The notes below the pieces were generated by a model. The model saw nothing but the letters and a program-made list of their open reading frames with translations. It was not told the origin of the DNA and ran no database searches. A stretch of 33,792 nt of DNA, taken from positions 1 to 33,792 of the forward strand of contig JAJFHU010000002.1 of the NCBI GenBank assembly GCA_021775455.1, given 5' to 3'. Of the stretch, positions 173 through 32,399 are shown piece after piece. The translations under genes were made by a program, and so were the position numbers. Origin of the DNA: Hyphomicrobiales bacterium (GTDB taxonomy: Bacteria > Pseudomonadota > Alphaproteobacteria > Rhizobiales > Rhizobiaceae). How positions within the stretch are numbered: position 1 is the stretch's first letter; the number at the start of each line of letters is the position of its first letter.

Positions 173-931
173 CTATTGCGCTAACTGTTTTATCTTTTCA
201 GCAAGTTGGTCATATCCAACTGCGCCGAAAATAACCTCTTCACCAATTATGTAGGAAGGCGTGCCGTTTATTCCCAAATTATCAGCGAGACTGTAGACTT
301 GGGTGATGGCTTCCGCAATAGATGGGTCTTCCATCTCGGTCCGCAATGTGACATCGTCAGCACCCATGGAGACGGCCAATTCGACCGCCCGAGCACCATC
401 CTTGGGCCCGTTCATTGCTAGCAATTCGATATGGAATTGAGCAGATTTTTCGGGCATTAACTTGGTAAAGGCAAGGCTTGCGCGATGGGCATCAACGGAA
501 GCATCTCCAAGAACAGGAAACTCTTTTAGAATGAATCGCACATTCTTGTTAGCCTTAATCAATTGTTCCATATCACTCATTGCGCGCTTGCAAAAACTAC
601 AATTGTAGTCAAAAAATTCCACGATCATAATTGAAGCGTTCGGATCACCAATTTCAATTTGGTTTTCAGACGCGTAAATCAAATCTCTATTGTCGATGAG
701 TGTTTTTTTCTGCCGGGCTGCAAGTTGTTCTTGTTGCCTTGCCTCTAGTACAGCCTGGATATCAAGTAGGATTTCCGGATTTTCAAGCAAATATTCCCTG
801 ACAATATTTTCAATTTCCTGACGGTTTGCATCCTGTGCCATCGCAGCTTGATGGACTATCATCATTGAAAAAAAACCGATCAAAAATGGCGCTGTTAATT
901 TGTAAGTATATGTTAAACACCGATGTAGCAT
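173..931 (-). CDS. DsbA-family thiol oxidoreductase, ScsC/Com1-like
   Basis: A 252-residue exported thioredoxin-fold protein. Residues 1-33 form a signal peptide (hydrophobic core, then QAAMAQ). Residues 36-75 are a Gln/Glu-rich helix of the type seen at the N-terminus of ScsC/Com1 proteins, where it drives oligomerisation. The catalytic CSFC motif is at 111-114 after EFFDYN, and the cis-proline loop GTP is near 223-225. Such proteins form or isomerise disulfides in the periplasm, and ScsC relatives are linked to copper tolerance, which fits the neighbouring metal genes. It is transcribed toward the IS30 end and probably stands alone: the next gene upstream is an acyltransferase remnant. Fold assignment is firm; the copper link is inference. 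Confidence 0.88.
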   Translation of the reverse strand: MLHRCLTYTYKLTAPFLIGFFSMMIVHQAAMAQDANRQEIENIVREYLLENPEILLDIQAVLEARQQEQLAARQKKTLIDNRDLIYASENQIEIGDPNASIMIVEFFDYNCSFCKRAMSDMEQLIKANKNVRFILKEFPVLGDASVDAHRASLAFTKLMPEKSAQFHIELLAMNGPKDGARAVELAVSMGADDVTLRTEMEDPSIAEAITQVYSLADNLGINGTPSYIIGEEVIFGAVGYDQLAEKIKQLAQ

Positions 932-1227: not shown

Positions 1228-1451
1228 TCACGTGACAATAATTTCTGAACCGGTAGTGACCCTTCCGTAAAGATCGATTACATCCTGATTCATCATCCGG
1301 ACGCAGCCAGAAGAAACCGCTTTGCCTATTGTCCAGTATTCGGGTGTGCCATGTATTCGATAGAGCGTGTCTTCCTTGCCCTGGAAAATATACAATGCCC
1401 GAGCGCCAAGCGGATTGTTCAGTCCGGGTGGCATTCCACCATTTGCTTCAC
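1224..1451 (-). repeat. Inverted duplication, copy A (3' end of L,D-transpeptidase A)
   Basis: This 228-bp stretch, read on the minus strand, matches 9319-9546 on the plus strand with five substitutions and no gaps (about 98 percent). It covers the catalytic last third of the transpeptidase gene and stops seven bases past the stop codon. The sequence further downstream is also related to the downstream of the other copy, but much less closely. Confidence 0.9.
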
Positions 1452-1938
1452 TGTATTTGGCAAGTTCCGGTTGACGCTCAATCATTTCTTGCGGCGGGGT
1501 CCATTTAGGCCACTCCTGTTTCCATCCGACCCGGGCTCGTCCTGACCATTCAAATCCAGCGCGACCCAAACCAACTCCGTACCGCATTGCCTTGCCGCCC
1601 TCCTGTACGAGATAAAGATAGAACTTTCTGGTATCGACTATCACCGTGCCGACGTTTTCCGTGGTTGGATAATTCACCTGTCTTCGGTAATATTTTGCTG
1701 GAACTTTTTTCAGATTAACAGCCGGGACAGGAAACCGCTCATTTGGCATTGCCCCATAGCGGGTGACAAAGGTTTTATTGGCCGTATCTTCAGCCCCTTT
1801 ATTTGCCTTTCTTTTTTTGAAATATTCTCCAAAATAATCGAATTTGGGAGCGCTTGTGCAGCCGGTGATTATAGTTCCACTGAGCACTGCGGAACCGGAT
1901 AAAAATTTCCGTCGTGTGTAATAGTAATTGGTTTTCAT
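1228..1938 (-). CDS. L,D-transpeptidase A (YkuD domain), Tat/lipoprotein signal
   Basis: A periplasmic enzyme that cross-links peptidoglycan stems (3-3 bonds) or attaches proteins to them through a catalytic cysteine. The YkuD domain fills the second half; the active-site pattern HGTPEYWTIGKAVSSGCVRM places His near residue 196 and Cys near 212 of 236. The open frame extends upstream to 2052, but the ATG at 1938 is preferred: it is followed by twin arginines (TRRKFL), a short hydrophobic stretch and a lipobox-like ITGC, giving a lipoprotein anchored near residue 27. The start overlaps the stop of a 24-codon upstream ORF (ATGA), suggesting coupled translation. The Cys-rich protein at 2085-2435 lies just upstream. 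L,D-transpeptidases are copper-sensitive enzymes in E. coli, which may explain their place among metal genes (inference). Confidence 0.9.
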   Translation of the reverse strand: MKTNYYYTRRKFLSGSAVLSGTIITGCTSAPKFDYFGEYFKKRKANKGAEDTANKTFVTRYGAMPNERFPVPAVNLKKVPAKYYRRQVNYPTTENVGTVIVDTRKFYLYLVQEGGKAMRYGVGLGRAGFEWSGRARVGWKQEWPKWTPPQEMIERQPELAKYSEANGGMPPGLNNPLGARALYIFQGKEDTLYRIHGTPEYWTIGKAVSSGCVRMMNQDVIDLYGRVTTGSEIIVT

Positions 1939-2009
1939 GATATTGCTGAAGCCCCAATTCGGCAAACACTTTCGGAGCCATCCAAGGCAAATGATTCTGG
2001 TGAAATCAT
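1935..2009 (-). CDS. 24-aa upstream ORF coupled to L,D-transpeptidase A
   Basis: Between the Cys-rich protein and the transpeptidase, an ATG at 2009 is preceded by GGAG (2020-2017) with a 7-base spacer, a better ribosome site than the transpeptidase's own. The ORF reads MISPESFALDGSESV, then eight or nine more residues, and its TGA overlaps the transpeptidase ATG (ATGA). This suggests that ribosomes reach the transpeptidase by termination-reinitiation. Nothing is known about the peptide and it may be only a coupling device. Existence as a translated ORF is inferred from the signals alone. Confidence 0.4.
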   Translation of the reverse strand: MISPESFALDGSESVCRIGASAIS

Positions 2010-2084
2010 ATCTATTCTCCGTACTAAACAATTGTTGGTTAAGCGATTTCACTCGCTATTCTTGATCGCAGTATTGACTAGCAA

Positions 2085-2435
2085 TCAAACAATTGGAGGG
2101 CGGAAAAAATTCTGACGATTGTGACTTTCAAGCGAGTTTGGAATAAATGGCAAATGCTTGTCAGTAGATCGAATCGATTGTCTGGGATCAATCGAAATCA
2201 GAAGCTTACAATCAAGCGGACAGTGTGATCCATGTCCGGCCATGTCCGGCTGCTGCTCGGTGCAACATGCCACAGGGTCATGATTGTTTTTCTGATCCAC
2301 ATCAAATCCAATGCTTATGGTACTGATGAAAGATGCAGTCTTGTCTGATCTATCGTTGTATTCGCCAACGCTCCCTGCAATACCCTGCATTGAAGAAAAA
2401 GCCACCAGCAAAAAGATCAAAATCCATTTACGCAT
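2085..2435 (-). CDS. Small exported Cys-rich protein A (CC-X13-C-X3-C, ends FRPPIV)
   Basis: A 116-residue protein with signal peptide MRKWILIFLLVAFSSMQGIAG, a middle segment CCTEQQPDMAGHGSHCPLDC and a C-terminus NFFRPPIV. The start at 2435 is chosen over the longer GTG frame because the signal sequence begins there. It pairs with the protein at 7150-7497: same length, same CC-X13-C-X3-C spacing with GSHC, same FRPPIV end, and each precedes an L,D-transpeptidase. The Cys/His cluster suggests binding of a soft metal. The layout (exported metal-binding peptide, Pro-Pro just before the stop, regulated gene next) resembles CruR/CutF copper-responsive leaders with DUF2946-like features, in which nascent export controls the downstream gene. 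No family was recognised with certainty; the sensor role is inference. Confidence 0.72.
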   Translation of the reverse strand: MRKWILIFLLVAFSSMQGIAGSVGEYNDRSDKTASFISTISIGFDVDQKNNHDPVACCTEQQPDMAGHGSHCPLDCKLLISIDPRQSIRSTDKHLPFIPNSLESHNRQNFFRPPIV

Positions 2436-2526
2436 ATCAATATTCTTATCTATAGCGACAGATATCGTCCATACTAACACCTTCACAGATTTGTGAGGTT
2501 GGGCGGGTTATAATTTTTCCAACCGA

Positions 2527-2541
2527 TTTGAGAATCTCAAA
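2527..2541. promoter_or_regulatory. Perfect 15-bp palindrome upstream of Cys-rich protein A
   Basis: TTTGAGAATCTCAAA has 7-base arms around one central base and lies about 90 bases upstream of the Cys-rich gene start. A possible -10 (TATAAC on the minus strand) lies between it and the gene, near 2511. It could be an operator for the L,D-transpeptidase A unit. No second copy was noticed. Confidence 0.3.
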
Positions 2542-2744
2542 GAATTTGAACAATAGAGCACCACCCAAATTGGTTCATCGTTCCAAAAATTGCTTTCTCC
2601 AAGTCATCGAATATCCACGCTTTGCATGAAACTCACATTGCAATTTCGTCCTTAGCAACTGCCGATCATCAATTGCAACCGGACACGTCCGCTAGTGGAC
2701 ACCATAGTATCATAAAACCAGACAGTAAAAACTCCAGCATTTCA

Positions 2745-2758
2745 TTGATCCATATCAA
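2745..2758 (+). promoter_or_regulatory. FNR/FixK-type box with class II promoter spacing
   Basis: TTGATCCATATCAA is a perfect TTGAT-N4-ATCAA site. A -10-like TTAAAT lies at 2781-2786, which would put the transcription start near 2793 and the box centre at about -41.5, the classic position for an FNR-activated promoter. The first gene downstream is the cytochrome c at 2872. The roughly 390 bases between the Cys-rich gene start (2435) and this promoter's gene otherwise hold only the palindrome at 2527 and no convincing gene. Confidence 0.72.
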
Positions 2759-2871
2759 TGTTGGGCAATACGGACTTCCATTAAATGAGTACAGGTATTT
2801 TTGCCTTTCGCAAGTAGCGCACTGAAATCGTTTACCGAGTGGAACGACAACGCATGGAAAGGAATGATGCA

Positions 2872-3456
2872 ATGAAATTGTCCAGCCGTATAATGGTTGC
2901 GCTGACTGCAGCCACACTACTTACGAGTCCTGCACAAACAGCTTACGCAGCTGCTGGCCATTCCGACGGAGACCTTGGCCACGATAGCGCCAGGGAAATG
3001 ATGGATCAAATGCGCGAACAACATGGCGACCACGAACACGGGCACGATTTTGAGGCAATGGAAGAAATGTCTCCCGAGCAAATGGAGCGGATGATCACCT
3101 TGATGCGCGATGTTGGCATTGTTTTGCCAAGCATGAACTCCAAGCGCGGCCGCAAGCTGTTTGTTAAAACCGGATGCGTTGTTTGCCACTCGGTAAATGG
3201 GGTCGGTGGAGAAATCGGTCCGAGCCTTAATGCAGCAGAAATGCCTTCCCCAATGAACTCCTTTGAGTTTGCTGCTCGGATGTGGCGCGGAGCGGCGGCC
3301 ATGACCGCAATGCAACAGGATATGTTTGGCGATGTCATTTCATTAAACGGTCAGGATTTGGCAGACCTGATTGCATTTGCCCATGATGGGAAGGAGCAGA
3401 AAAAACTAAAAAAGCGCCAAATCCCGAAAAAATTTCGAGATTTATTGAATGAATGA
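2872..3456 (+). CDS. Periplasmic cytochrome c with His/Met-rich N-terminal region
   Basis: A 194-residue mono-haem c-type cytochrome. The signal peptide MKLSSRIMVALTAATLL runs to about AYAA (residue 26). A His/Asp/Glu/Met-rich stretch (HGDHEHGHD) follows and may bind metal. The haem motif CVVCH is at 102-106, and several later methionines could be the axial ligand. The start at 2872 is supported by AAAGGA eight bases upstream; two earlier in-frame ATGs lack this and precede the signal peptide. Its stop overlaps the next gene (ATGA), so the two cytochromes are translationally coupled and probably pass electrons in one chain. The partner oxidase or reductase is not in the window. Confidence 0.86.
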   Translation: MKLSSRIMVALTAATLLTSPAQTAYAAAGHSDGDLGHDSAREMMDQMREQHGDHEHGHDFEAMEEMSPEQMERMITLMRDVGIVLPSMNSKRGRKLFVKTGCVVCHSVNGVGGEIGPSLNAAEMPSPMNSFEFAARMWRGAAAMTAMQQDMFGDVISLNGQDLADLIAFAHDGKEQKKLKKRQIPKKFRDLLNE

Positions 3457-4028
3457 GCATGACAACTGCCAATTTTCAAGAGATTAAGCACAGATCTAGA
3501 ATGAGCAATTCCCAAAATCCACCAACCCGGCGTGGCATAAAAGCAGTCGCCGTCGCTCTTGTAATCCTCATTGGCATTGTCGCCTTATCTTTTCTGTTTG
3601 GACGACATCCAATGTCCAGCCGAAGTAGCTGGCCATCACAATTTACAAGCAATGGGGAACAAATTTACTTCAGCGGATCAAGCGATTCTGGTCTTGCCAT
3701 AATTGCTCGTGGCGGAGACAGGCATATGAGGATGATGTCCGGAAGTAGTGGCTGTGTTACCTGCCATGGTGCAGACCGCCTAGGTGGGCGATTGATGCCA
3801 CGATTCTGGATAACGGTGCCACCTTTGACTTTTGAGGCGCTGTTTAGCGAACACGATGAGGATGGTCACGGCGATCATGAAGGCTATTCTGATGAATCTC
3901 TGCGGCGTGCGATTACCCAGGGTATTGACCCTGGCGGTAAACCTCTAGACTTAGCAATGCCTCGGTGGTCCATGTCTGAGAAAGATCTTGATGATTTGAT
4001 TGCCTTCCTAAAGACGGATATCGATTGA
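3453..4028 (+). CDS. Membrane-anchored cytochrome c
   Basis: A 191-residue protein with a single N-terminal membrane helix (about 29-50) and a periplasmic haem domain carrying CVTCH at 101-105. The segment SEHDEDGHGDHEGYSDESLRR is His/Asp-rich, and LAMPRWSMSEKDLDDLIAFL is the typical end of a class I cytochrome with the candidate Met ligand. The start overlaps the stop of the preceding cytochrome gene by four bases. An internal ATG at 3501 is possible, since residues 1-16 look unlike a normal N-terminus. The 165 bases after its stop hold no gene; a short open stretch there (LIFGPTLVAAVTFVSTLAFL) may be a membrane-protein relic. Confidence 0.85.
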   Translation: MSMTTANFQEIKHRSRMSNSQNPPTRRGIKAVAVALVILIGIVALSFLFGRHPMSSRSSWPSQFTSNGEQIYFSGSSDSGLAIIARGGDRHMRMMSGSSGCVTCHGADRLGGRLMPRFWITVPPLTFEALFSEHDEDGHGDHEGYSDESLRRAITQGIDPGGKPLDLAMPRWSMSEKDLDDLIAFLKTDID

Positions 4029-4193
4029 GCACTATCGTAAATAGCTGCCAATACGGTGCAGGTTCTCGTATGATCTGAACTTTCTATTGTAGAGGCTTAT
4101 TTTTGGCCCAACGCTGGTGGCTGCGGTTACGTTTGTTTCCACTTTGGCATTCTTGCAATATCCAATTCGCCGACGACTTAGATTAAATGAGTG

Positions 4194-4625
4194 TTACATC
4201 TTGTGTGGTCGAGTTTTGATCCCATTCGCGACTTGTAGTTCCCGGACATACTGAATAATTTTCGCGATGTCATTCTTCTCCAGATTGTCAATTCTTGGCA
4301 TATTACCATATGGCCAATGGTGCTGCCTGACACCGTTGGCCGTGGCCGCATAGAAAGACTCATCGGGATGATGTCCCGGGTTGTAAATATCGTGAATCAG
4401 CGGCGGCCCCGTTTTGCTACCTGAAGCATTGTCTCCGTGGCACGTCGCGCAATTTCCGGCAAACAAGTCCCGTCCTTCGCTTGCCTCTACAGTAAACACA
4501 GGCAAGACCAAATTCACGGGCTTCGCGGTAGGATCCGGTGCAAAGTTTTTGAAAACTAATGCAATTGCGCCCAACCCAAAGAAGCCGATCACAAACAATT
4601 TTGGATAATTGATTTCACCTTTCAC
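4194..4625 (-). CDS. Membrane-anchored cytochrome c
   Basis: A small c-type cytochrome of about 143 residues with an N-terminal membrane helix (PKLFVIGFFGLGAIALVF), the haem motif CATCH at about 59-63 and a Met ligand in WPYGNMPRID, a typical class I mono-haem layout. The frame is open to a TTG at 4655, but the GTG at 4625 is preferred because AAGGG lies seven bases before it and the membrane anchor follows directly. It converges with the upstream cytochrome pair and has its own FNR-type box at 4755-4768. Its domain resembles that of the cytochrome at 8720-9232. Confidence 0.85.
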   Translation of the reverse strand: MKGEINYPKLFVIGFFGLGAIALVFKNFAPDPTAKPVNLVLPVFTVEASEGRDLFAGNCATCHGDNASGSKTGPPLIHDIYNPGHHPDESFYAATANGVRQHHWPYGNMPRIDNLEKNDIAKIIQYVRELQVANGIKTRPHKM

Positions 4626-4754
4626 TGCCTGACCCTTCTCAAATCTCCAAACCAAAAGGTAATCGCGAATTCAGCGGGACGATTTTCGATACACAAGGAA
4701 TTGCGTTACCTAACTCACATTGAATACCTTTACACAGGAATGTGCCGGGCCTCA

Positions 4755-4768
4755 TTGATCTAGATCAG
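4755..4768 (-). promoter_or_regulatory. FNR/FixK-type box upstream of minus-strand cytochrome c
   Basis: TTGATCTAGATCAG matches TTGAT-N4-ATCAA except for the last base. Transcription leftward with class II spacing would start near 4720; TAAAGG or TATTCA on the minus strand between 4732 and 4721 could serve as the -10. The cytochrome c start lies about 130 bases away. Confidence 0.6.
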
Positions 4769-4802
4769 ACAGGCGCCGAATTTTCCGCATATGCCAGATT
4801 GT

Positions 4803-5118
4803 TTGAGTCATCGAGAAATGGTTATAAGCCGTTGCGTGAATTAACGAGAATTTCTGTATGTTGGCGCATCGCCTGAATTTCTGCATGCTCTGTTCTCGTC
4901 GACAAAAAGGCTGAAGTGAGTTCTCAGCCGTTTGAATTCCCTGTTGTAAAATTCATGGCACGACGAAAGCCGCAATTCACTAATTGTGGCTTCGTAAGAT
5001 CGTAGTCTGCCCGAAACGATTGCCTTGGGTGATCCGTGTCTCTTCATAGTGTTTGTCAGAAACTCAATGCATCCCATTTATCGCAGCGCTTTGAAACATA
5101 GGATTCCAGGAGTTCACC
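4803..5118 (-). pseudogene. Degraded IS6-family transposase remnant
   Basis: Three minus-strand pieces in shifting frames align in order with the intact IS6 transposase at 30422-31123: GELLESYVSKRCDKW (5118 down to about 5075), then FLTNTMKRHGSPKAIVSGRL and SSCHEF (about 5060-4940), then PFCRREQSMQKFRRC and ASN-type C-terminal residues ending NHFS (about 4915-4805). Frameshifts and stops separate them, and the second catalytic Asp (TDK in the intact copy) is replaced by Gly. The N-terminal third is missing. The upper end abuts the stop codon of the cytochrome b561 gene, which may therefore have a borrowed or trimmed C-terminus. Confidence 0.8.
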
Positions 5119-5664
5119 TTATCGTAATATCCGCCGCAACGTATCGTCCCTATCTATAAAATGATGCTTTAGCGCAGCAAACGCATGTAGCGCAATTAGC
5201 GCAAGAAACAGTTTTCCGCCCCAATTGTGGATCAAGTGCCAGTTGATGCCATAATCCGGCAACAGTGGAATCTTGGTCCCGAACCAACGGGCCGGTTGAA
5301 CACCGAATGACCGCCGTACATGTTCAGTGTAGGCTAGCCAACCGGTCAGCGGAATCAGGAACATCGCAATATACATGATAGTATGCACGGCACGAGCGGC
5401 AAGAGCTTCGATACGATTTTGTGCTAACGGAGCAGGAGGGGAACGTCGAAGTCGACAAAACAACCGTACACAAACCAGAAAGAACAATATTAATCCAAGG
5501 CTGGTATGCAGCGATGGAAGGAATTGTATTCGATGATTTCCCATGGTCTGTTCACCAGTGATCAACATGCCAACCAACAAAACTGCCATTAACCAGTGAA
5601 GGAAAATTGCGATCCTCGAATATGCCTTCAATCCGGCTTCCTTTGAGTTTGAAGTTTTTGTCAC
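5119..5664 (-). CDS. Cytochrome b561-type membrane protein
   Basis: A four-helix di-haem membrane cytochrome of about 181 residues that passes electrons between the quinone pool and periplasmic or membrane partners. Likely haem-ligand histidines sit in IFLHWLMA, LPSLHTSLG, WHLIHNWGG and ALHAFAALKHHF. The frame opens 40 codons earlier at a TTG (5784), but GTG at 5664 is preceded by GGGAG and gives the usual family length; the extra N-terminus has no membrane or signal character. It follows the ferric-reductase-like gene on the same strand, separated by about 120 bases if the later start is right, and probably shares its FNR-like promoter. Its stop coincides with the edge of the IS6 remnant. 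Confidence 0.85.
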   Translation of the reverse strand: MTKTSNSKEAGLKAYSRIAIFLHWLMAVLLVGMLITGEQTMGNHRIQFLPSLHTSLGLILFFLVCVRLFCRLRRSPPAPLAQNRIEALAARAVHTIMYIAMFLIPLTGWLAYTEHVRRSFGVQPARWFGTKIPLLPDYGINWHLIHNWGGKLFLALIALHAFAALKHHFIDRDDTLRRILR

Positions 5665-5787
5665 ATTGCTCCCTATCCAGATTGAAATCGTTGAGTTGAA
5701 TAACGCTAAGCAGTTTGAATTTGCTTTTTCATTTGCCACGGGGATTGTGGTTGATGTGGTAAGGTTACAATCAGAGTCATGCAATTT

Positions 5788-6561
5788 TTAGCGCAGCGCT
5801 TTTTTAGGCGAAAGCCCCCTGTTTCTGTTCCTGCGCCAAACCTTCCAGGTTGCCAGAGCCTGAAGCAACAAGACCAATATTACCATTCCTGCAAATGGCC
5901 ATTGTAACCAATTTGGCTCCGGTGCAGGCCTGTGAAAATGTTGGAAGTGCATGTAAAGAAAATAGGCCACGTGAACCACAATTAATGCCCATAGCGGATA
6001 AACACCAAGCTGGATGAATTTCCAGGTCGATCCAAGCATCCGCTGACTCGCGTTATTTGATGTGAACAACAGAATTAGGCCGTAACAAAGGGCGAAAATA
6101 CCGATAATATTTGCCAATCCAAAACCGTGTTGAACCATTACATATTGCAGTAATTGTGGATGGATTTCATACCCAACTAGACGCAGCATATCCCATTGAA
6201 CCCACCCTTGAAGAATGATTACTGTGTGAGTAATCGCCAATAGAACACCATAAATTCCCGTCTCCCGACGCCACAGAGTAAGCCATTTCATTCCGCCCCA
6301 GAGCCGGGCCAATGGCCCCGATACAATAGAAAGGGCGATAAGGATCGAAGAAGCGTCGGCAAACGCGCGATTCCAAGCATGCATAGGCGACCACTCACCG
6401 CGGCTTATCAAAAATCCAGCCGTGACAATGATTGCGAGCAGAATTGTAACAGCATGACGCAGACGCCAGTCTCGTCCCCATCGCGATTGTTCTGCCGGTT
6501 GTTGAATATCGTTCGTAGCGCTCAAATTCTTTCCACCTATAACTTTGGTGCCAGTACTCAA
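5788..6561 (-). CDS. Ferric-reductase-like transmembrane protein (MsrQ/YedZ-like)
   Basis: A 257-residue haem b membrane protein of the ferric reductase-like transmembrane superfamily, with about six helices from residue 35 on. Candidate haem ligands are the His in LLAITHTVII, in YVMVQHGFGL and in LIVVHVAYFLYMHFQHFH. MsrQ relatives carry electrons from quinol or flavin to a periplasmic methionine-sulfoxide reductase; no MsrP is seen here, so the partner is unknown and may be the neighbouring b561 or a c-type cytochrome. The start at 6561 is a TTG without a ribosome site; a TTG at 6525 preceded by AGGTGG is an alternative. It is the first gene of a two-gene unit. Confidence 0.8.
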   Translation of the reverse strand: MSTGTKVIGGKNLSATNDIQQPAEQSRWGRDWRLRHAVTILLAIIVTAGFLISRGEWSPMHAWNRAFADASSILIALSIVSGPLARLWGGMKWLTLWRRETGIYGVLLAITHTVIILQGWVQWDMLRLVGYEIHPQLLQYVMVQHGFGLANIIGIFALCYGLILLFTSNNASQRMLGSTWKFIQLGVYPLWALIVVHVAYFLYMHFQHFHRPAPEPNWLQWPFAGMVILVLLLQALATWKVWRRNRNRGLSPKKALR

Positions 6562-7149
6562 TAAAGAACTTGGCTACTTTGTGGTTTTTCTCCAGTTGTA
6601 GGTCAAGTCCAATTGGTCAATTTTCTATAAAGTTCAGTTAACGCAACAATGCCGGAGTAGTTGATTATTTCATTAGGTTTCAAATAAGGCATTAATTTGG
6701 ATCAACTACGATGCTGGTTGTCTTGGTGTTGATACCGGCACATTCGTTATGGCCGGAGGCTCAAGGTTTTGAACACTGGCTTCGGAATCCATGTGTGACA
6801 CGGTTTCCCGTGAGATTGGCTCACGTAAAACGGTTGTATCTTGAACCGTTGTTACGGCAGCAATTCGGTTTCCATACTGGTAATTTCGTTTTCTAATCGA
6901 CAGCAAGAAAAAGTTGTTACTGAAAAATGACATGCCCCAATATGGGTCATACTTTATTGATTTGTGTCTAATTGATCCCGAGCGCAGTCCCTATTCAATC
7001 GCTCTACGATTTTTAATCTTGACCTTCCAATAAGTGGAACCTCTATATCCAGATTCGATGACAGGAGTAAAGAATTCCGGATTTGTTGATCACAATTGGT
7101 ACTTTGAGCGCTGTTGTATCTAAAATCGATTTCCTGTATTTTCTGGATT
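6562..7149. other. 588-base stretch without a convincing gene
   Basis: This divergent intergenic region separates the ferric-reductase unit (minus) from the second Cys-rich protein (plus). It holds an imperfect FNR-like box at 6692-6705. Open frames at 6706-6933 (minus) and 6711-6896 (plus) overlap each other and show no signal peptide, ribosome site or recognisable family. No clear promoter for the Cys-rich gene and no terminator hairpin were recognised. Confidence 0.5.
6692..6705 (-). promoter_or_regulatory. Imperfect FNR-type box upstream of ferric-reductase/b561 unit
   Basis: On the minus strand the site reads TTGATCCAAATTAA, a perfect left half and one mismatch in the right half of TTGAT-N4-ATCAA. 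AATAAT lies at 6669-6664, where the -10 is expected if the box is centred at -41.5 (start near 6657). This agrees with the spacing at 2745-2758. Confidence 0.5.
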
Positions 7150-7497
7150 ATGAGAGCAATTGCCACTGTTTTGATCTCGATGTTGTTTTTAAGCAGCCAC
7201 ATTGTGGCGGGCCCGGGCGCATTGCTGGTGGATAGCCAAATTGAACATCGCTCGCAGATTCAGATAATGGATATTCTTGATCTATCTGATGCCAATCAAG
7301 AAGCCACTACGAAGTGTTGCGAAAAACAAACGTCAGATTATCATTCAACTGGATCACATTGCCTGGCCGATTGTATTGCGGTCATTGTTATATCCAATAT
7401 TGATTTCTCAATGATTAGGCAGGTGTCGATCGCCGTAGCCGCTGGATTAATTGGCTTAGACAAATACCACTACCTTTTCCGACCTCCAATTGTTTGA
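7150..7497 (+). CDS. Small exported Cys-rich protein B (CC-X13-C-X3-C, ends FRPPIV)
   Basis: A 115-residue paralogue of the protein at 2085-2435. It has a signal peptide (MRAIATVLISMLFLSSHIVAG), a motif segment CCEKQTSDYHSTGSHCLADC and the end YLFRPPIV. The last 15 bases of both genes are identical (CCTCCAATTGTTTGA) although most of the rest has diverged. ATG 7150 is chosen because the signal begins there; an upstream TTG at 7114 is in frame. L,D-transpeptidase B starts 70 bases after its stop. Conserved spacing of the four Cys plus GSHC suggests a metal site; the C-terminal Pro-Pro before the stop suggests a stalling leader. Outside the pair, no family was recognised with confidence. Confidence 0.72.
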   Translation: MRAIATVLISMLFLSSHIVAGPGALLVDSQIEHRSQIQIMDILDLSDANQEATTKCCEKQTSDYHSTGSHCLADCIAVIVISNIDFSMIRQVSIAVAAGLIGLDKYHYLFRPPIV

Positions 7498-7560
7498 CTC
7501 CTGAATTGTAAGTCGTCCTATCGGCGCGACTTGTCCTATGGGAAATCACACATTTTGGAG
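7484..7560 (+). promoter_or_regulatory. Possible leader switch: Pro-Pro codons complementary to the L,D-transpeptidase B ribosome site
   Basis: The bases CTCCAA at 7484-7489, within the Pro-Pro-Ile codons of the Cys-rich gene, are the exact complement of TTGGAG at 7555-7560, the ribosome site of the transpeptidase. Between them a hairpin AAGTCG/CGACTT with an 11-base loop can form near 7511-7533. A ribosome paused at the Pro-Pro codons would uncover the ribosome site. This is a prediction from base pairing only; six base pairs can arise by chance. Confidence 0.35.
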
Positions 7561-7567
7561 CAGTAAT

Positions 7568-8128
7568 ATGTTTTGTAGAAGAGTCTTCATAGTGGGCGGT
7601 GGGCTGGGATTGTTAGCCACCACATATCCAGCCCTGGCGCACAACACAAAAAACTTTAGGCTTGAACCAAAATTCATGCCGCAGACGGTTCGGTTCAGGG
7701 GGTATGCGCCAGGAACTATCGTTGTCGATCCAAACAATCATTTTCTTTACCTCGTTCAGACTGCCGGTCGGGCACGACGATACGGCGTTGGAGTTGGCAA
7801 GGCCGGGCTAACGTTCAAGGGACGCGCACGAGTTGGGCGCAAAGCCAAATGGCCGAGTTGGACCCCGACCGCCAACATGATCCGTCGCAGTCCAAAAAAA
7901 TATGCCAAATTTGCCAATGGTGTTCCAGGCGGCCCAAATAATCCTTTGGGCGCTAGGGCATTATATCTTTATCGAGGTGAACGCGACACATATTTCCGAA
8001 TCCATGGAACCAACCAACCATCTTCGATTGGGCAGTCGGTTTCAAACGGGTGTATCCGGATGATCAATGACCATGCCATCGATCTATACGAGCGTGTACC
8101 GGTTGGTGCGAAGGTGGTGGTATTGTAA
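7568..8128 (+). CDS. L,D-transpeptidase B (YkuD domain), Tat-like signal
   Basis: A 186-residue exported peptidoglycan L,D-transpeptidase. Start 7568 is supported by GGAG seven bases upstream and by the twin-arginine signal (CRRVFIVGGGLGLLATTYPALA); an in-frame ATG at 7538 lies in the leader region. The active-site pattern HGTNQPSSIGQSVSNGCIRM puts His near 146 and Cys near 162. It shares with copy A the blocks VDPNNHFLYLVQ, RYGVGVGKAG, ARVGRKAKWPSWTP and PNNPLGARALYL, but the two are clearly diverged and B lacks the lipobox. It is followed without a gap by the DUF411 gene (TAATG), giving a unit of Cys-rich protein, transpeptidase, DUF411 and cytochrome c. Confidence 0.9.
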   Translation: MFCRRVFIVGGGLGLLATTYPALAHNTKNFRLEPKFMPQTVRFRGYAPGTIVVDPNNHFLYLVQTAGRARRYGVGVGKAGLTFKGRARVGRKAKWPSWTPTANMIRRSPKKYAKFANGVPGGPNNPLGARALYLYRGERDTYFRIHGTNQPSSIGQSVSNGCIRMINDHAIDLYERVPVGAKVVVL

Positions 8129-8718
8129 TGAAAAACTCCCCGAAACACTCTATGAAAATTGGAAAAATGAATCGCTGGATTCACTCCAATCAACACTTCT
8201 GGATTGTTGACGGACTTGCAACAGTTGACAAATTGTACTGCTATTTTGCCACAATCACGGCTGCTCGAACATGGCAGATGCTTGTTGGAGCATTTCTCTT
8301 GATATCGATTACCACTGCTCCAAGTGCCGCAAATCAGGATAAAAGAATAACGATTTTTACTACACTGGAGTGCACTTGTAACAATCTCTGGGCTGCAAAA
8401 CTGGCAAACGCTGGTTTTACGATCGTAATTGAGGATACCAAGGATCTTACTTCGATTAAGAGACAAGCGGGCGTTCCAAATACACTGCAGGGATGTCAGA
8501 CCGCCGTTATAAGCGAGTACATTTTAGAAGGGAGAATTCCCTTGCCAGCGATTAAAAAATTGTTGAGCGAGCGTCCCAATGTCCGAGGAATTGCGCTGCT
8601 GGAAAAACCAGTCGGGCAAACGAAATCAACCTGCGATGTAAGTAGCGATTTGAAGGTTTATGCCTTCAGCTACGATTCTGGCATTACGCCCAGGTTATTC
8701 TACGAAACTGGGGACTAG
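8128..8718 (+). CDS. DUF411 family metal-associated protein
   Basis: The C-terminal two thirds match DUF411, a small periplasmic family common in copper and silver resistance clusters: ITIFTTLECTCNNLWAAKLA, then AGVPNTLQGCQTAVISEYI and LEGRIPLPAIKKLL. The usual CGCC is changed to CTCN here, so one metal-ligand Cys may be lost. The first 50 residues are unusual; a hydrophobic segment (MLVGAFLLISITTAPSAA) starting at an internal ATG (8278) looks like the real signal peptide. The ATG at 8128 overlaps the transpeptidase stop (TAATG), so translation may be coupled and start there. The next gene begins one base after its stop. Confidence 0.75.
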   Translation: MKNSPKHSMKIGKMNRWIHSNQHFWIVDGLATVDKLYCYFATITAARTWQMLVGAFLLISITTAPSAANQDKRITIFTTLECTCNNLWAAKLANAGFTIVIEDTKDLTSIKRQAGVPNTLQGCQTAVISEYILEGRIPLPAIKKLLSERPNVRGIALLEKPVGQTKSTCDVSSDLKVYAFSYDSGITPRLFYETGD

Positions 8719-8719
8719 C

Positions 8720-9232
8720 ATGGCTAACATTGGTGCAAAAAAGGCAAATCGGCTTAAGATCTGTGTTGCTTCGGCTACGGCCATTGCGGTGATAGTTCTT
8801 GTGTTCTTTTTTGTTTGGAATTCGCTCTACGGAAAACCACAATTGCTCCTGCAGCCTACAAACGCAGATATTGTTGCATTGGGGCAAGAAGTCTATGCGG
8901 TGAATTGTGCCTCGTGTCACGGTAAAAGTCTCGAAGGTGAGAAGAATTGGCGCAGTCCCGACGACTTTGGAATGTTGCCGGCACCTCCGCACAACATAGA
9001 TGGCCATACCTGGCACCACACCGATGATGTTTTGTTCGGAATTACGAAATTCGGCTTGGCTAAATTTGGTGGGCTGAAGAACCATCAATCCAATATGCCA
9101 ATTTTTGATGGAATTCTCACCGATGATGAAATTATTGCAGCGTTAAGTTACATCAAGTCATATTGGCCAATCGAAACGCAAAAGCGCCATGACGAACTGA
9201 ATTATCAAAAAGAAAAAACAAAGAATCAATAA
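8720..9232 (+). CDS. Membrane-anchored cytochrome c
   Basis: A 170-residue mono-haem cytochrome with an N-terminal helix (about 13-35), haem motif CASCH at 63-67 and axial Met in NHQSNMPIFDG. The start is set at 8720, one base after the DUF411 stop and with GGGGA just upstream; the longer frame from 8660 overlaps the DUF411 gene. Its placement after L,D-transpeptidase B and DUF411 suggests one transcript. Likely role: electron transfer at the periplasmic face, partner unknown. The next gene-like sequence is a broken transpeptidase copy. Confidence 0.85.
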   Translation: MANIGAKKANRLKICVASATAIAVIVLVFFFVWNSLYGKPQLLLQPTNADIVALGQEVYAVNCASCHGKSLEGEKNWRSPDDFGMLPAPPHNIDGHTWHHTDDVLFGITKFGLAKFGGLKNHQSNMPIFDGILTDDEIIAALSYIKSYWPIETQKRHDELNYQKEKTKNQ

Positions 9233-9318: not shown

Positions 9319-9542
9319 GTGAAGGAAATGGTGGAATGTCACCCGGACTGAACACTCCGCTTGGCGCTCGGGCATTGTATATTTTCCAGGGCAAGGAAGA
9401 CACGCTTTATCGAATACATGGAACACCCGAATACTGGACAATAGGCAAAGCGGTTTCTTCTGGCTGCGTCCGGATGATGAATCAGGATGTAATCGATCTT
9501 TACGGAAGGGTCACTACCGGTTCAGAAATTATTGTCACGTGA
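9319..9542 (+). pseudogene. Truncated second copy of L,D-transpeptidase A (3' end)
   Basis: The frame ending at 9542 encodes the last 74 residues of L,D-transpeptidase A, including HGTPEYWTIGKAVSSGCVRM, nearly unchanged. It lacks the signal and the first two thirds of the enzyme. An ATG at 9261 would add about 19 unrelated residues without a signal peptide, so no exported product is expected. With the acyltransferase tail that follows, it mirrors the layout at 1048-1451. Confidence 0.85.
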
Positions 9543-9546
9543 GATG
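9319..9546 (+). repeat. Inverted duplication, copy B (with 1224-1451)
   Basis: This is the plus-strand partner of the repeat at 1224-1451: 228 bases, five substitutions, no gaps. The two copies face each other across about 7.9 kb holding the cytochrome and Cys-rich/transpeptidase genes, so recombination between them could invert that segment. Confidence 0.9.
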
Positions 9547-9601
9547 GCACTGGTGGGAGTAACCAAGGACGGATAGATAGCATACATTTAGGCTTCATGA
9601 T

Positions 9602-30398: not shown

Positions 30399-31174
30399 GG
30401 GTGGCCCCGTAACATTTTCAGATGAAGAATCCTTTCAGCTATTTCAAAACGTCACCCGAGATCATCCGACTTGCAGTAATGCTGCATGTTCGCTTTCCGC
30501 TTTCACTTCGTAATGTGGAAGATTTGCTTCATGAACGCGGGATTGATGTCAGCCATGAAACGATCAGATATTGGTGGAATCGGTTTGGTCCGATGTTCGC
30601 AAGAGAAATTCGTAAGCACCGTGTGCGCAGCCACAAAGGATATAGGCAATGGCAGTGGCACCTGGACGAGGTATTCGTGAAAATTAATGGGAAAGCATTT
30701 TATCTCTGGCGCGCGGTCGATCATCAAGGTGAAGTGCTTGAAGCGTTCGTTTCCAAGAAGCGCGACAAGCGCGCTGCACTGAAGTTTCTGCGAAAAGCAG
30801 TAAAACGCTTCGGCCAGCCTAAGACAATCGTTACGGACAAACTCCAGTCGTATGGTGCCGCACTGAAGGATCTGGGTCTTTCATCTTGTCATGAGTTCGG
30901 CGGCAGAAAGAACAATCGTGCTGAGAATTCACATCAACCATTTCGACGACGAGAAAAGATCATGCAAAAGTTCAGGCGATCCAGCAGCCTTCAGAAATTC
31001 GCATCAATTCACGCATCCGTTTACAACCATTTCAACCAGGACCGACACCTAAACAAGCGACAGACATTCAAAGAAAACCGTTCTTCCGCGATGGCTGAAT
31101 GGAAGATGTTGTTGGCGGTTTGAAAATGGTGCCGACTGTTTTGATTGCCGACGTGTTTTAGTCTGACAATGCCG
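30365..31174 (+). mobile_element. IS6-family insertion sequence, complete
   Basis: About 0.8 kb, the usual IS6 size. The left end begins GGCATTGTCAGA (30365) and the right end is its inverted copy, TCTGACAATGCC, ending near 31173; further matching bases continue inward (AAAC, then GGC.CC and ATTTTCA). The flanking eight bases differ on the two sides (left TGGCGAAG or similar, right CGACGCGG), so there is no simple target duplication, as is common after IS6 cointegration or deletion. It interrupts the exported ORF at 30222. Confidence 0.75.
30422..31123 (+). CDS. IS6-family transposase
   Basis: A 233-residue full-length DDE transposase. Catalytic residues are Asp82 in WHLDEVFVKING, Asp139 in IVTDKLQSYG and Glu168 in NNRAENSHQPFRRRE, followed by the usual RREKxMQKFR basic segment. 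The N-terminal zinc-finger/HTH part (SPEIIRLAVMLHVRFPLSLR, then VSHETIRYWWNRFGP) is complete. It looks functional. The copies at 33613-33792 and 4803-5118 are from different, diverged members. Confidence 0.93.
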   Translation: MKNPFSYFKTSPEIIRLAVMLHVRFPLSLRNVEDLLHERGIDVSHETIRYWWNRFGPMFAREIRKHRVRSHKGYRQWQWHLDEVFVKINGKAFYLWRAVDHQGEVLEAFVSKKRDKRAALKFLRKAVKRFGQPKTIVTDKLQSYGAALKDLGLSSCHEFGGRKNNRAENSHQPFRRREKIMQKFRRSSSLQKFASIHASVYNHFNQDRHLNKRQTFKENRSSAMAEWKMLLAV

Positions 31175-31400: not shown

Positions 31401-31742
31401 ATGAAAAACAGATCAGCGCTGCGGGTGGCAGTTGCTCTGATGTTTGTGGCGTTCGTCTTTGTTTCTTCTGCTCAGACGGTGGCTTCGGCAGCGCGAGGTT
31501 GCTTTGCCGAGCAAAGTGACGGTGCCGCCGCTCACCTCGACCTAGCAGTAATTCACCGTTCTTCGATCAGTGACCACTGCCGTGTCCTATATGTTGCTGT
31601 CACACGAACTTTGACTTCCACCACGCCATTTTGGCCCCTCCCTCGTTTAGGCATCTGGCGAATTGAGGGTGCAATCACCGCCCCGGTTGGCTACATAATC
31701 CAATTTTTTCGCCCGCCGAAGACGCTGCCAAAGCAAGTCTGA
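31401..31742 (+). CDS. Small exported protein ending in FFRPP-type tail, upstream of ECF sigma factor
   Basis: A 113-residue protein with signal segment MKNRSALRVAVALMFVAFVF to about AQTVASA, two Cys (RGCFAEQ and SDHC), and the end YIIQFFRPPKTLPKQV. The FFRPP before the stop and SDHC recall the two Cys-rich proteins at 2085 and 7150, but the CC pair and CX3C are absent. ATG 31401 is chosen for the signal; ATG 31373 with GGGGTGG upstream is an alternative. The sigma gene follows after 72 bases. It may be a leader or sensor for the sigma factor; no family was recognised. The 226 bases between the IS6 end and this gene show nothing clear. Confidence 0.55.
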   Translation: MKNRSALRVAVALMFVAFVFVSSAQTVASAARGCFAEQSDGAAAHLDLAVIHRSSISDHCRVLYVAVTRTLTSTTPFWPLPRLGIWRIEGAITAPVGYIIQFFRPPKTLPKQV

Positions 31743-31814: not shown

Positions 31815-32399
31815 ATGCATACCCAAACTCATGGCCCGGACCTAGCTCAAAAATCGCTGCCCGACCGCGACTTCGTCAACCAGCGCTTGCTAGAGAGGAG
31901 ACGCGCGTTCCTGGCGTATTTCCGACATAAACTTGGCAACCCGCAAGATGCGGAGGATGCGTTTCAGGATTTTAACCTCAAAGTCATCCGATCCGCACGG
32001 TCGTTGCAAAACATCGAGAAAACAGATGCCTGGCTTGGCCGCACAATGCGCAACACGCTGATTGACCATTATCGTCGACGCGCGACAAGAAAACATGCTG
32101 AAACAACATATGCGCAAGAGGTCAAAATCACTGCGAACGCGATCAAGGAAACCCAAGTCGAGACACCGTGCAAATGCCTCGGTGCGGCCCTGTTAGATCT
32201 GAAACCCGAATATGCCAGCCTCTTGCAACGTGCCGATCTTACCGAAGAACCCCGCGGTCGTATCGCGACCGATCTTGGCATAACAACCAATAGCCTAAAT
32301 GTGCGACTGCATCGAGCCCGTCAGGAGCTGAAGTCCAAGCTTGAAAGGTCATGTCCAGCCTGCTGTGCTGGAACTTTCATGGATTGTGAATGCGAATGA
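31815..32399 (+). CDS. ECF-type RNA polymerase sigma factor with Cys-rich C-terminal tail
   Basis: A 194-residue sigma-70-family factor. Region 2 (about 25-95) includes RRRAFLAYFRHKLGNPQDAED, AFQDFNLKVIR and DAWLGRTMRNTLIDHYRRR; region 4 (about 120-175) includes LLDLKPEYASLLQRADL and LGITTNSLNVRLHRARQELK. The tail SCPACCAGTFMDCECE holds five Cys, and CKC lies in the linker between the domains. Cys-rich tails switch activity with metal in CorE-like ECF factors, so a metal-responsive sigma is likely here (inference). No anti-sigma gene is adjacent. GGAG seven bases upstream supports the ATG at 31815. Confidence 0.88.
   Translation: MHTQTHGPDLAQKSLPDRDFVNQRLLERRRAFLAYFRHKLGNPQDAEDAFQDFNLKVIRSARSLQNIEKTDAWLGRTMRNTLIDHYRRRATRKHAETTYAQEVKITANAIKETQVETPCKCLGAALLDLKPEYASLLQRADLTEEPRGRIATDLGITTNSLNVRLHRARQELKSKLERSCPACCAGTFMDCECE

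Follow-up and report, generated by a model that had tools for sequence, protein, structure and literature searches.

Evidence for probable nascent-chain leaders of L,D-transpeptidase genes in Hyphomicrobiales: the CutF-CutO layout with a new target

In this study, we analyzed a stretch of 33,792 nucleotides (nt) from a Hyphomicrobiales bacterium (assembly GCA_021775455.1, contig JAJFHU010000002.1, positions 1 to 33,792; hereafter the window), in which two genes for small exported Cys-motif proteins, here called leaders, each precede a gene for a YkuD L,D-transpeptidase (Ldt). The pairing of leader and Ldt is conserved and spread over many families, mainly of the Hyphomicrobiales. Our analyses give good support to the view that the small genes are nascent-chain leaders of Ldt genes, with the layout of the CutF-CutO system and a new target. 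Specifically, each small gene is probably a CutF-type leader on which a metal-prolonged ribosomal stall opens the Shine-Dalgarno (SD) sequence of the Ldt gene. The gene pairing, a fixed spacing within the leader, the pairing of the SD with covariation across the family and the identity of the Ldts were all computed.

Results

The first-pass annotation had described two modules of leader and L,D-transpeptidase in the window, and both were confirmed:

2085..2435, minus strand: leader A, 116 amino acids (aa), with signal peptide, CC-X13-C-X3-C, 36-residue linker and FRPPIV (open reading frame (ORF), motif alignment)
1228..1938, minus strand: LdtA, YkuD L,D-transpeptidase, likely start 1938 (Pfam, alignment)
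7150..7497, plus strand: leader B, 115 aa, layout as in leader A (ORF, motif alignment)
7568..8128, plus strand: LdtB, YkuD L,D-transpeptidase with the twin-arginine start MFCRR (Pfam, alignments, fold model)
7484..7560, plus strand: predicted stem-loop in which the Pro-Pro codons of leader B (CTCCAA) pair with the SD of LdtB (TTGGAG) around an inner hairpin (minimum free energy -25.7 kcal/mol)

The two leaders had been called strongly diverged, and they are indeed only 26% identical, with MR at the start common to both; as described, both carry CC-X13-C-X3-C, GSHC and FRPPIV, and their last 15 bases are identical. The assignment of the downstream proteins held as well, since both match Pfam YkuD (E 6e-23 and 2e-25; 82.5 and 90.7 bits vs. 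a cut-off of 23.4) and the active-site elements HGT and S-x-GC-[VI]-R are conserved in three alignments of 4, 4, and 16 rows. The predicted fold of LdtB (pLDDT 76.9, pTM 0.70) retrieved a PDB list headed by L,D-transpeptidases and YkuD proteins, with the exception of the first entry, which is differently named and 60% identical. LdtA and LdtB are thus assigned to the YkuD L,D-transpeptidases by domain and motif, and LdtB also by fold, with cross-linking activity predicted. For LdtA, 2052 is merely the start of the longest ORF, and 1938 is the likelier ATG, on the same strand as leader A; the N-terminus is of twin-arginine type with a lipobox-like element (TRRKFLSG...ITGC; signal type read by eye), and the active site reads HGT...SSGCVR. 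For LdtB the ORF list gives 7538, and we prefer 7568, which has the SD TTTTGGAG and begins MFCRR.

Two further modules stand in tandem on contig C41 of the same genome, in the order MerR, leader B′, LdtB′, leader A′, LdtA′, PCuAC-like protein, transglutaminase-like protease and P-type ATPase on one strand (neighbors named by eye). Leader A′ (L009 7922-8272, minus strand) has lost one of its four Cys (GSHC to STHS) but still ends in FRPPIV at a spacing of 36 residues. No leader precedes the four other full-length Ldt genes detected in this genome (L003, two in L004, L008).

The distribution of the pair was followed in two samples. First, LdtA alone served as query against 84,980 species genomes, and the best 80 of the matches listed were kept. 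A leader was scored where an exported ORF with at least two Cys and with Pro-Pro in the last 15 residues lay at most 420 nt upstream of the YkuD domain; export was judged by a hydrophobic-stretch criterion, without a signal-peptide predictor. Among these best 80 loci, a leader stands upstream in 34 of the 45 closer LdtA-type loci (L028-L072) and in only 2 of the 35 lower-identity Ldt loci (L073-L107), namely L104 and L088, the latter a true Labrenzia leader; the boundary at L072 was set after the listing had been inspected. Of 697 other genes in the same loci, five satisfied the rule, one of them being the L050 leader. Among the 11 closer loci without a scored leader, inspection by eye showed loci beginning too near a contig end (L029 and L036), leaders lying within an ORF too long for the rule (L035 and L064), a leader directly before a DUF411-like gene that is itself ahead of LdtA (L050) and an apparently broken leader (L042), and found no leader upstream in L053, L069, and L071; in L043 and L051, Pro-Pro candidates are present outside the rule. 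Second, similarity to LdtB in 249 genomes of the order yielded 23 loci, 19 of them with a leader (L155 and L148 are doubtful by eye); at least five loci (L137, L141, L142, L144, and L145) repeat first-sample loci or earlier multicopper-oxidase loci. In addition to the family of the window, the clear cases fall under ten family labels (f7, f12, f14, f16, f21, f24, f29, f40, f43, and f44). The first-pass annotation had named a lack of association between the small family and YkuD genes in other genomes as grounds for rejecting its idea; the association was found in both samples, and the idea passed this check.

Other searches delimited the family. A class-wide sample of 385 genomes gave 30 Ldt loci, 25 from other genomes, with no leader outside the genome's own modules; four loci (L112, L131, L133, and L134) had a Pro-Pro ORF by a loose rule and none by a stricter one. 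A profile made from the genome's own four leaders found clear relatives outside that genome only in G080 and G115 among the 249 genomes of the order, where three of four weaker matches were inspected and were not leaders beside an Ldt; in the 385 genomes of the class it found no clear relative and two weak matches. The profile was unproductive because it was too narrow, and the search through the Ldt was the productive route. Against Pfam and NCBIfam the leaders gave nothing above the cut-off and a few sub-threshold matches, none of the 11 leaders scanned matched Pfam DUF2946, and an Rfam scan of the window at gathering scores gave no match.

The spacing within the leader is the second line of evidence. 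The set comprised 45 leaders (the genome's own four, L020, and the definable ones of L028-L072 and L088), and Cys at most 15 residues from the Pro-Pro, as in C41_B, were ignored. The distance from the last motif Cys to the Pro-Pro is 36 residues in 34 of the 45, 35 in six, 34 in two, 40 in two, and 22 in one. The plasmid-borne leaders of Hoeflea and Nitratireductor have 36, and two identical Martelella leaders have 40. By contrast, the distance from signal core to Cys varies from 7 to 72 (n = 39), and the linkers of 23 representatives share only 9.5% identity (6.6% after shuffling). A linker constant in length and free in sequence fits the need of a nascent-chain sensor that spans the ribosomal tunnel. 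The further marks of a CutF-like leader are also present: the window leaders are shorter than 150 residues with Pro-Pro within the last 15, have a signal peptide as judged by the hydrophobic stretch, and are followed within 1000 nt by a gene on the same strand (70 nt from leader B to LdtB, 146 nt from the leader A stop to the LdtA ATG). The pattern of CruR, CXXC with RAPP at 45, is absent; the leaders mostly have C-X3-C or C-X4-C and FRPPI or a similar end.

The third line of evidence comes from the RNA junction between leader and Ldt. We used 31 junctions with gaps of 40-100 nt (46-96 nt in fact), including the window and C41 B copies and setting aside longer junctions and L104; arm 1 was the last 18 nt of the leader plus 12 nt, and arm 2 was the ribosome-binding site of the Ldt. 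Own arms pair with a mean of -13.98 kcal/mol, compared with -9.81 kcal/mol for arms swapped between loci, an advantage that none of 20,000 permutations reached, either for all 31 junctions or when these were reduced to 20 cluster representatives. With the arms displaced by 40-60 nt, ten controls gave p from 0.03 to 0.46. Base pairing between the leader end and the SD is seen in 27 of the 31 junctions vs. 39 of 244 control junctions between same-strand genes at comparable gaps, so that the stem-loop over the downstream SD known from CutF recurs in the family; the four junctions below a sequestration of 0.5 are L028, L041, L043, and window B. The pairing apparently takes one of two registers: either the GGAG core is bound by the Pro-Pro codons, or TCAGG is bound by CCTGA, which comprises the last codon and the stop. 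All 14 junctions selected for the second register keep these five pairs intact, partly by selection, and past the stop 7 to 11 of 14 positions are paired, by standard pairs that vary.

In a rapidly built tree of 178 Ldt rows, the leader-associated enzymes fall almost entirely into two clades. The LdtB clade (44 rows, support 92) has the leader directly upstream in 39 rows; in the LdtA clade (48 rows, support 84), 27 rows are second in a leader operon and 17 stand directly behind the leader. Outside both clades, one row has a leader (L104) and four are second in a leader operon. LdtA alone follows the leader directly in several separate branches, and several leader-LdtA junctions hold apparent remnants of LdtB DNA (by eye; window 2009-1935 included), which suggests that the loss of LdtB left the leader in place. 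In L068 (5854-6581), pieces of LdtB and LdtA are fused, as after an internal deletion, and the leader is still upstream.

These results bear on the view that the leader works as a finished protein, a periplasmic metallochaperone or an Ldt regulator, and that the hairpin reflects ordinary translational coupling. A signal peptide with a Cys motif would suit a small exported metal-binding protein, and CutF itself was first conjectured to be a copper chaperone (PMC9426467). We nevertheless hold this view to be highly improbable, because the linker is conserved in length and hardly in sequence, the Pro-Pro end is retained, the leader persists directly before LdtA in several branches without LdtB, and its end pairs specifically with its own SD across the family.

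Chance co-occurrence of leader and Ldt was considered separately and was rejected on the control loci, control genes, control junctions, and tree.

Neighboring genes were compared between 36 leader loci and 34 control loci over the flanks covered; the neighbor-gene control comprised 133 of 199 genes with near-duplicate loci dropped, and the Pfam counts cover the 25 commonest families and are to be read as trends only. Strictly read, a multicopper oxidase (MCO), a DUF411 protein or a metal P-type ATPase lies in the flank of 9 of the 36 leader loci, compared with 1 of the 34 controls. The order MCO, leader, LdtB, LdtA occurs in L020 and L021 (two genomes, one other family). In the four of five plasmid records from which context was drawn, an oxidase adjoins the leader upstream in Hoeflea and Nitratireductor, whose plasmids carry P-type ATPases as well, and in Martelella the leader has a cation diffusion facilitator gene upstream of it and a metal-transport gene, for a P-type ATPase, ∼3.4 kb downstream. 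DUF411, which we take to be the copper protein CopG, lies between LdtB and LdtA in L031, L039, L044, and L046, and a DUF411-like gene directly follows the L050 leader (by eye). The neighbors make copper the likely ligand, although many loci lack them.

A second group of neighbors points to redox chemistry. A thioredoxin-like protein with a start of the twin-arginine translocation (Tat) type follows LdtA in 14 of the 36 leader loci and in none of the 34 controls, and DsbA-like proteins follow the module in the window, L048, and L049 (window and L048 by eye). These genes would fit a reading in which the same nascent-chain switch takes periplasmic thiol oxidation as its input, through disulfides between the Cys pairs, and raises Ldt and thiol reductase together, because Ldt enzymes depend on one reduced catalytic Cys; in E. 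coli, DsbG protects the Cys of L,D-transpeptidases. Leaders ending in RAPP or RGPP have been reported upstream of DsbA and thioredoxin genes (PMC12992588). Nevertheless, the MCO, DUF411 and P-type ATPase neighbors of other loci, as well as the precedents CutF and CruR, both of which respond to copper via Cys motifs, make an oxidation input unlikely.

The remaining features around the two modules are as follows:

1935..2009, minus strand: mini-ORF MISPES..., with ACGGAG ahead of its start and a TGA overlapping the LdtA ATG
173..931, minus strand: DsbA/thioredoxin-like protein downstream of LdtA (ORF; family by eye)
8128..8718, plus strand: DUF411 protein directly after LdtB (Pfam, E 7.7e-11)
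8660..9232, plus strand: cytochrome c of a family seen after LdtA in other loci (Pfam, locus comparison)
9319..9549, plus strand: copy of the LdtA 3′ end, 97.4% identical to 1221-1451 in the other orientation (sequence comparison)

The mini-ORF, read by eye, is probably the remnant of a lost LdtB start; its C41 counterpart, MISQRQIVL...FKL, still resembles the LdtB N-terminus (by eye). Judged from the sequence, the copy at 9319..9549 is a sign of recent exchange between modules A and B, and module B may once have ended in LdtA.

Other small ORFs of this kind were noted. In L042 and L045, small ORFs with Cys that end in LDPPPPR... lie upstream of genes at 2773 and 1976, near a multicopper oxidase. 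In the window, a small exported ORF at 31401-31742 (plus strand) has two Cys, ends in ...FFRPPKTLPKQV before its stop and has no Pfam match; 72 nt behind it, a sigma-factor-like gene (31815-32399, plus strand; by eye) has the Cys-rich tail CPACCAGTFMDCECE, and the junction before 31815 holds a CGACGG/CCGTCG inverted repeat ahead of the SD. This ORF may be one more leader of the CutF type, serving a metal-sensing sigma factor. In addition, a transposase-like ORF (30422-31123, plus strand) and a similar fragment (4841-5077, minus strand; both by eye) have much of the metal gene cluster between them.

Discussion

Several known systems share parts of this arrangement. In CutF-CutO of Rhodobacter capsulatus, a stem-loop covers the SD of a Tat-exported target (PMC9973294), and the leaders described here have in common with it a small exported ORF, a Cys motif, a C-terminal Pro-Pro, a short junction, an SD stem-loop and a Tat-exported enzyme. 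The target there is a multicopper oxidase, whereas here it is an L,D-transpeptidase, and in several of our loci the oxidase precedes the leader. Furthermore, the spacing is 36 residues instead of the 45 of CruR and CutF (PMC9426467; PMC9973294), the site has four Cys, one pairing arm lies in the leader's own last codons, and DUF2946, in which CutF was placed by its authors (PMC9973294), is not matched. CruR of Bordetella pertussis, a DUF2946 protein (PMC9426467), is likewise an upstream ORF with a Cys pair, a C-terminal Pro-Pro and a conserved spacing, but differs by its RAPP, its spacing of 45, its longer junction and its TonB receptor target, as well as by the family match. The RAPP/RGPP arrest peptides (PMC12992588, PMC10987492), for which arrest has been shown (PMC12992588), are likewise small exported upstream ORFs with a Pro-Pro close to the C-terminus; the ends here are FRPPI, KPPNS or PPPR, and Ldt is not among the downstream genes named there. 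Other YkuD L,D-transpeptidases of Hyphomicrobiales share Pfam YkuD, active-site motif and fold, but these two clades carry the leader, partly amid metal or redox genes, and the other Ldts of this genome do not. In topic searches of the literature, the leading titles and abstract starts did not describe any leader of this kind ahead of an Ldt gene. The words transpeptidase and YkuD have no match in the main texts of PMC9973294, PMC9426467, and PMC12992588, a scope outside which Fig. 6B and the supplement of the CutF paper may hold a YkuD row.

From these comparisons, we infer a stall, an inducing and not a repressing effect, copper as the ligand and a physiological role as follows. The Sec signal peptide would direct the leader chain through the translocon before its translation is complete. 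With the ribosome at the Pro-Pro codons, the four-Cys site, 36 to about 55 residues back along the chain, would have reached or passed the tunnel exit and could there bind metal, most likely copper. Binding would lengthen the stall at (F/L)RPPI, and the stalled ribosome would cover the codons at the leader end that are otherwise engaged with the Ldt SD. The freed SD would allow LdtB and LdtA, with their Tat-type signals, to be made, and these may keep the wall cross-linked, or anchor the envelope anew, at times when the housekeeping members of this enzyme class are poisoned by copper. In vitro, inhibition of a 1,3-Ldt by Cu2+ is complete, and 3,3-Ldts are cited as being inhibited too (PMC10864386); PMC9302775 also reports that copper inhibits Ldts. 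In its complete form, this is a cotranslational copper gauge of the Hyphomicrobiales that has its own ruler of 36 residues, uses its Pro-Pro and stop codons at the same time as an anti-SD and controls a dedicated pair of Tat-exported Ldts as back-up, perhaps copper-tolerant, cross-linkers under copper; to this whole we give roughly even chances. The likeness to CutF and CruR drawn in the first-pass annotation is strengthened by the fixed spacing and by the pairing of leader end and SD, while its copper ligand and its adjustment of the wall under copper stress are points that we, too, infer.

The sign of the response could also be the reverse. In a CruR-like mode, metal would relieve the stall, and the Ldt genes would be turned off via Rho-dependent termination or hairpin closure. 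CruR, assembled from the same parts, works with the opposite sign (PMC9426467); we consider this mode quite improbable here, as the 31 junctions are short with the SD in a hairpin as in CutF, compared with 162 nt in CruR (PMC9973294), and the metal genes, where seen, look like copper defense and not uptake.

A number of observations weigh against induction of the Ldts by copper through such a switch. First, CruR shows that the direction cannot be read from the sequence, and arrest at xRPPI, KPPNS or PPPR ends was not found in the parts of the literature covered. Second, the Cys site is not uniform, as the CC pair is missing in L056, L063, and L067 and the motif differs in L035 and L038. Third, a copper-type neighbor occurs in only those 9 loci of the 36, the MCO match of L037 has merely 27% identity, no oxidase adjoins the leader on the two Martelella plasmids, and no copper gene was recognized among the 14 loci with the thioredoxin-like neighbor, mostly of Roseibium and Anderseniella. 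The C41 modules (L009 2952-10149) are flanked on one side by a MerR-type regulator and on the other by a Zn/Cd-like P-type ATPase (both by eye), and this pair may answer another metal. Fourth, three of the ten shifted-arm controls had p < 0.05 (0.030-0.040), and the relatedness of the sequences is not fully removed from the pairing tests. In the window, junction B pairs no better with its own arm (-11.4) than with foreign arms (median -11.8) and has a sequestration score of 0.43; therefore, the anti-SD claim rests on the family.

The system is compact and occurs in genera with cultured strains (Roseibium, Hoeflea, and Aminobacter), and its ruler length, Cys site and anti-SD can be varied separately. 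If the copper-responsive leader is real, it would join two effects of copper on the envelope, the inhibition of Ldts and the sensing on nascent exported chains, and nascent-chain metal sensing would reach beyond metal handling to the building of the cell wall. It would also predict copper-conditional changes of wall cross-linking in the Hyphomicrobiales, an order known for polar growth.

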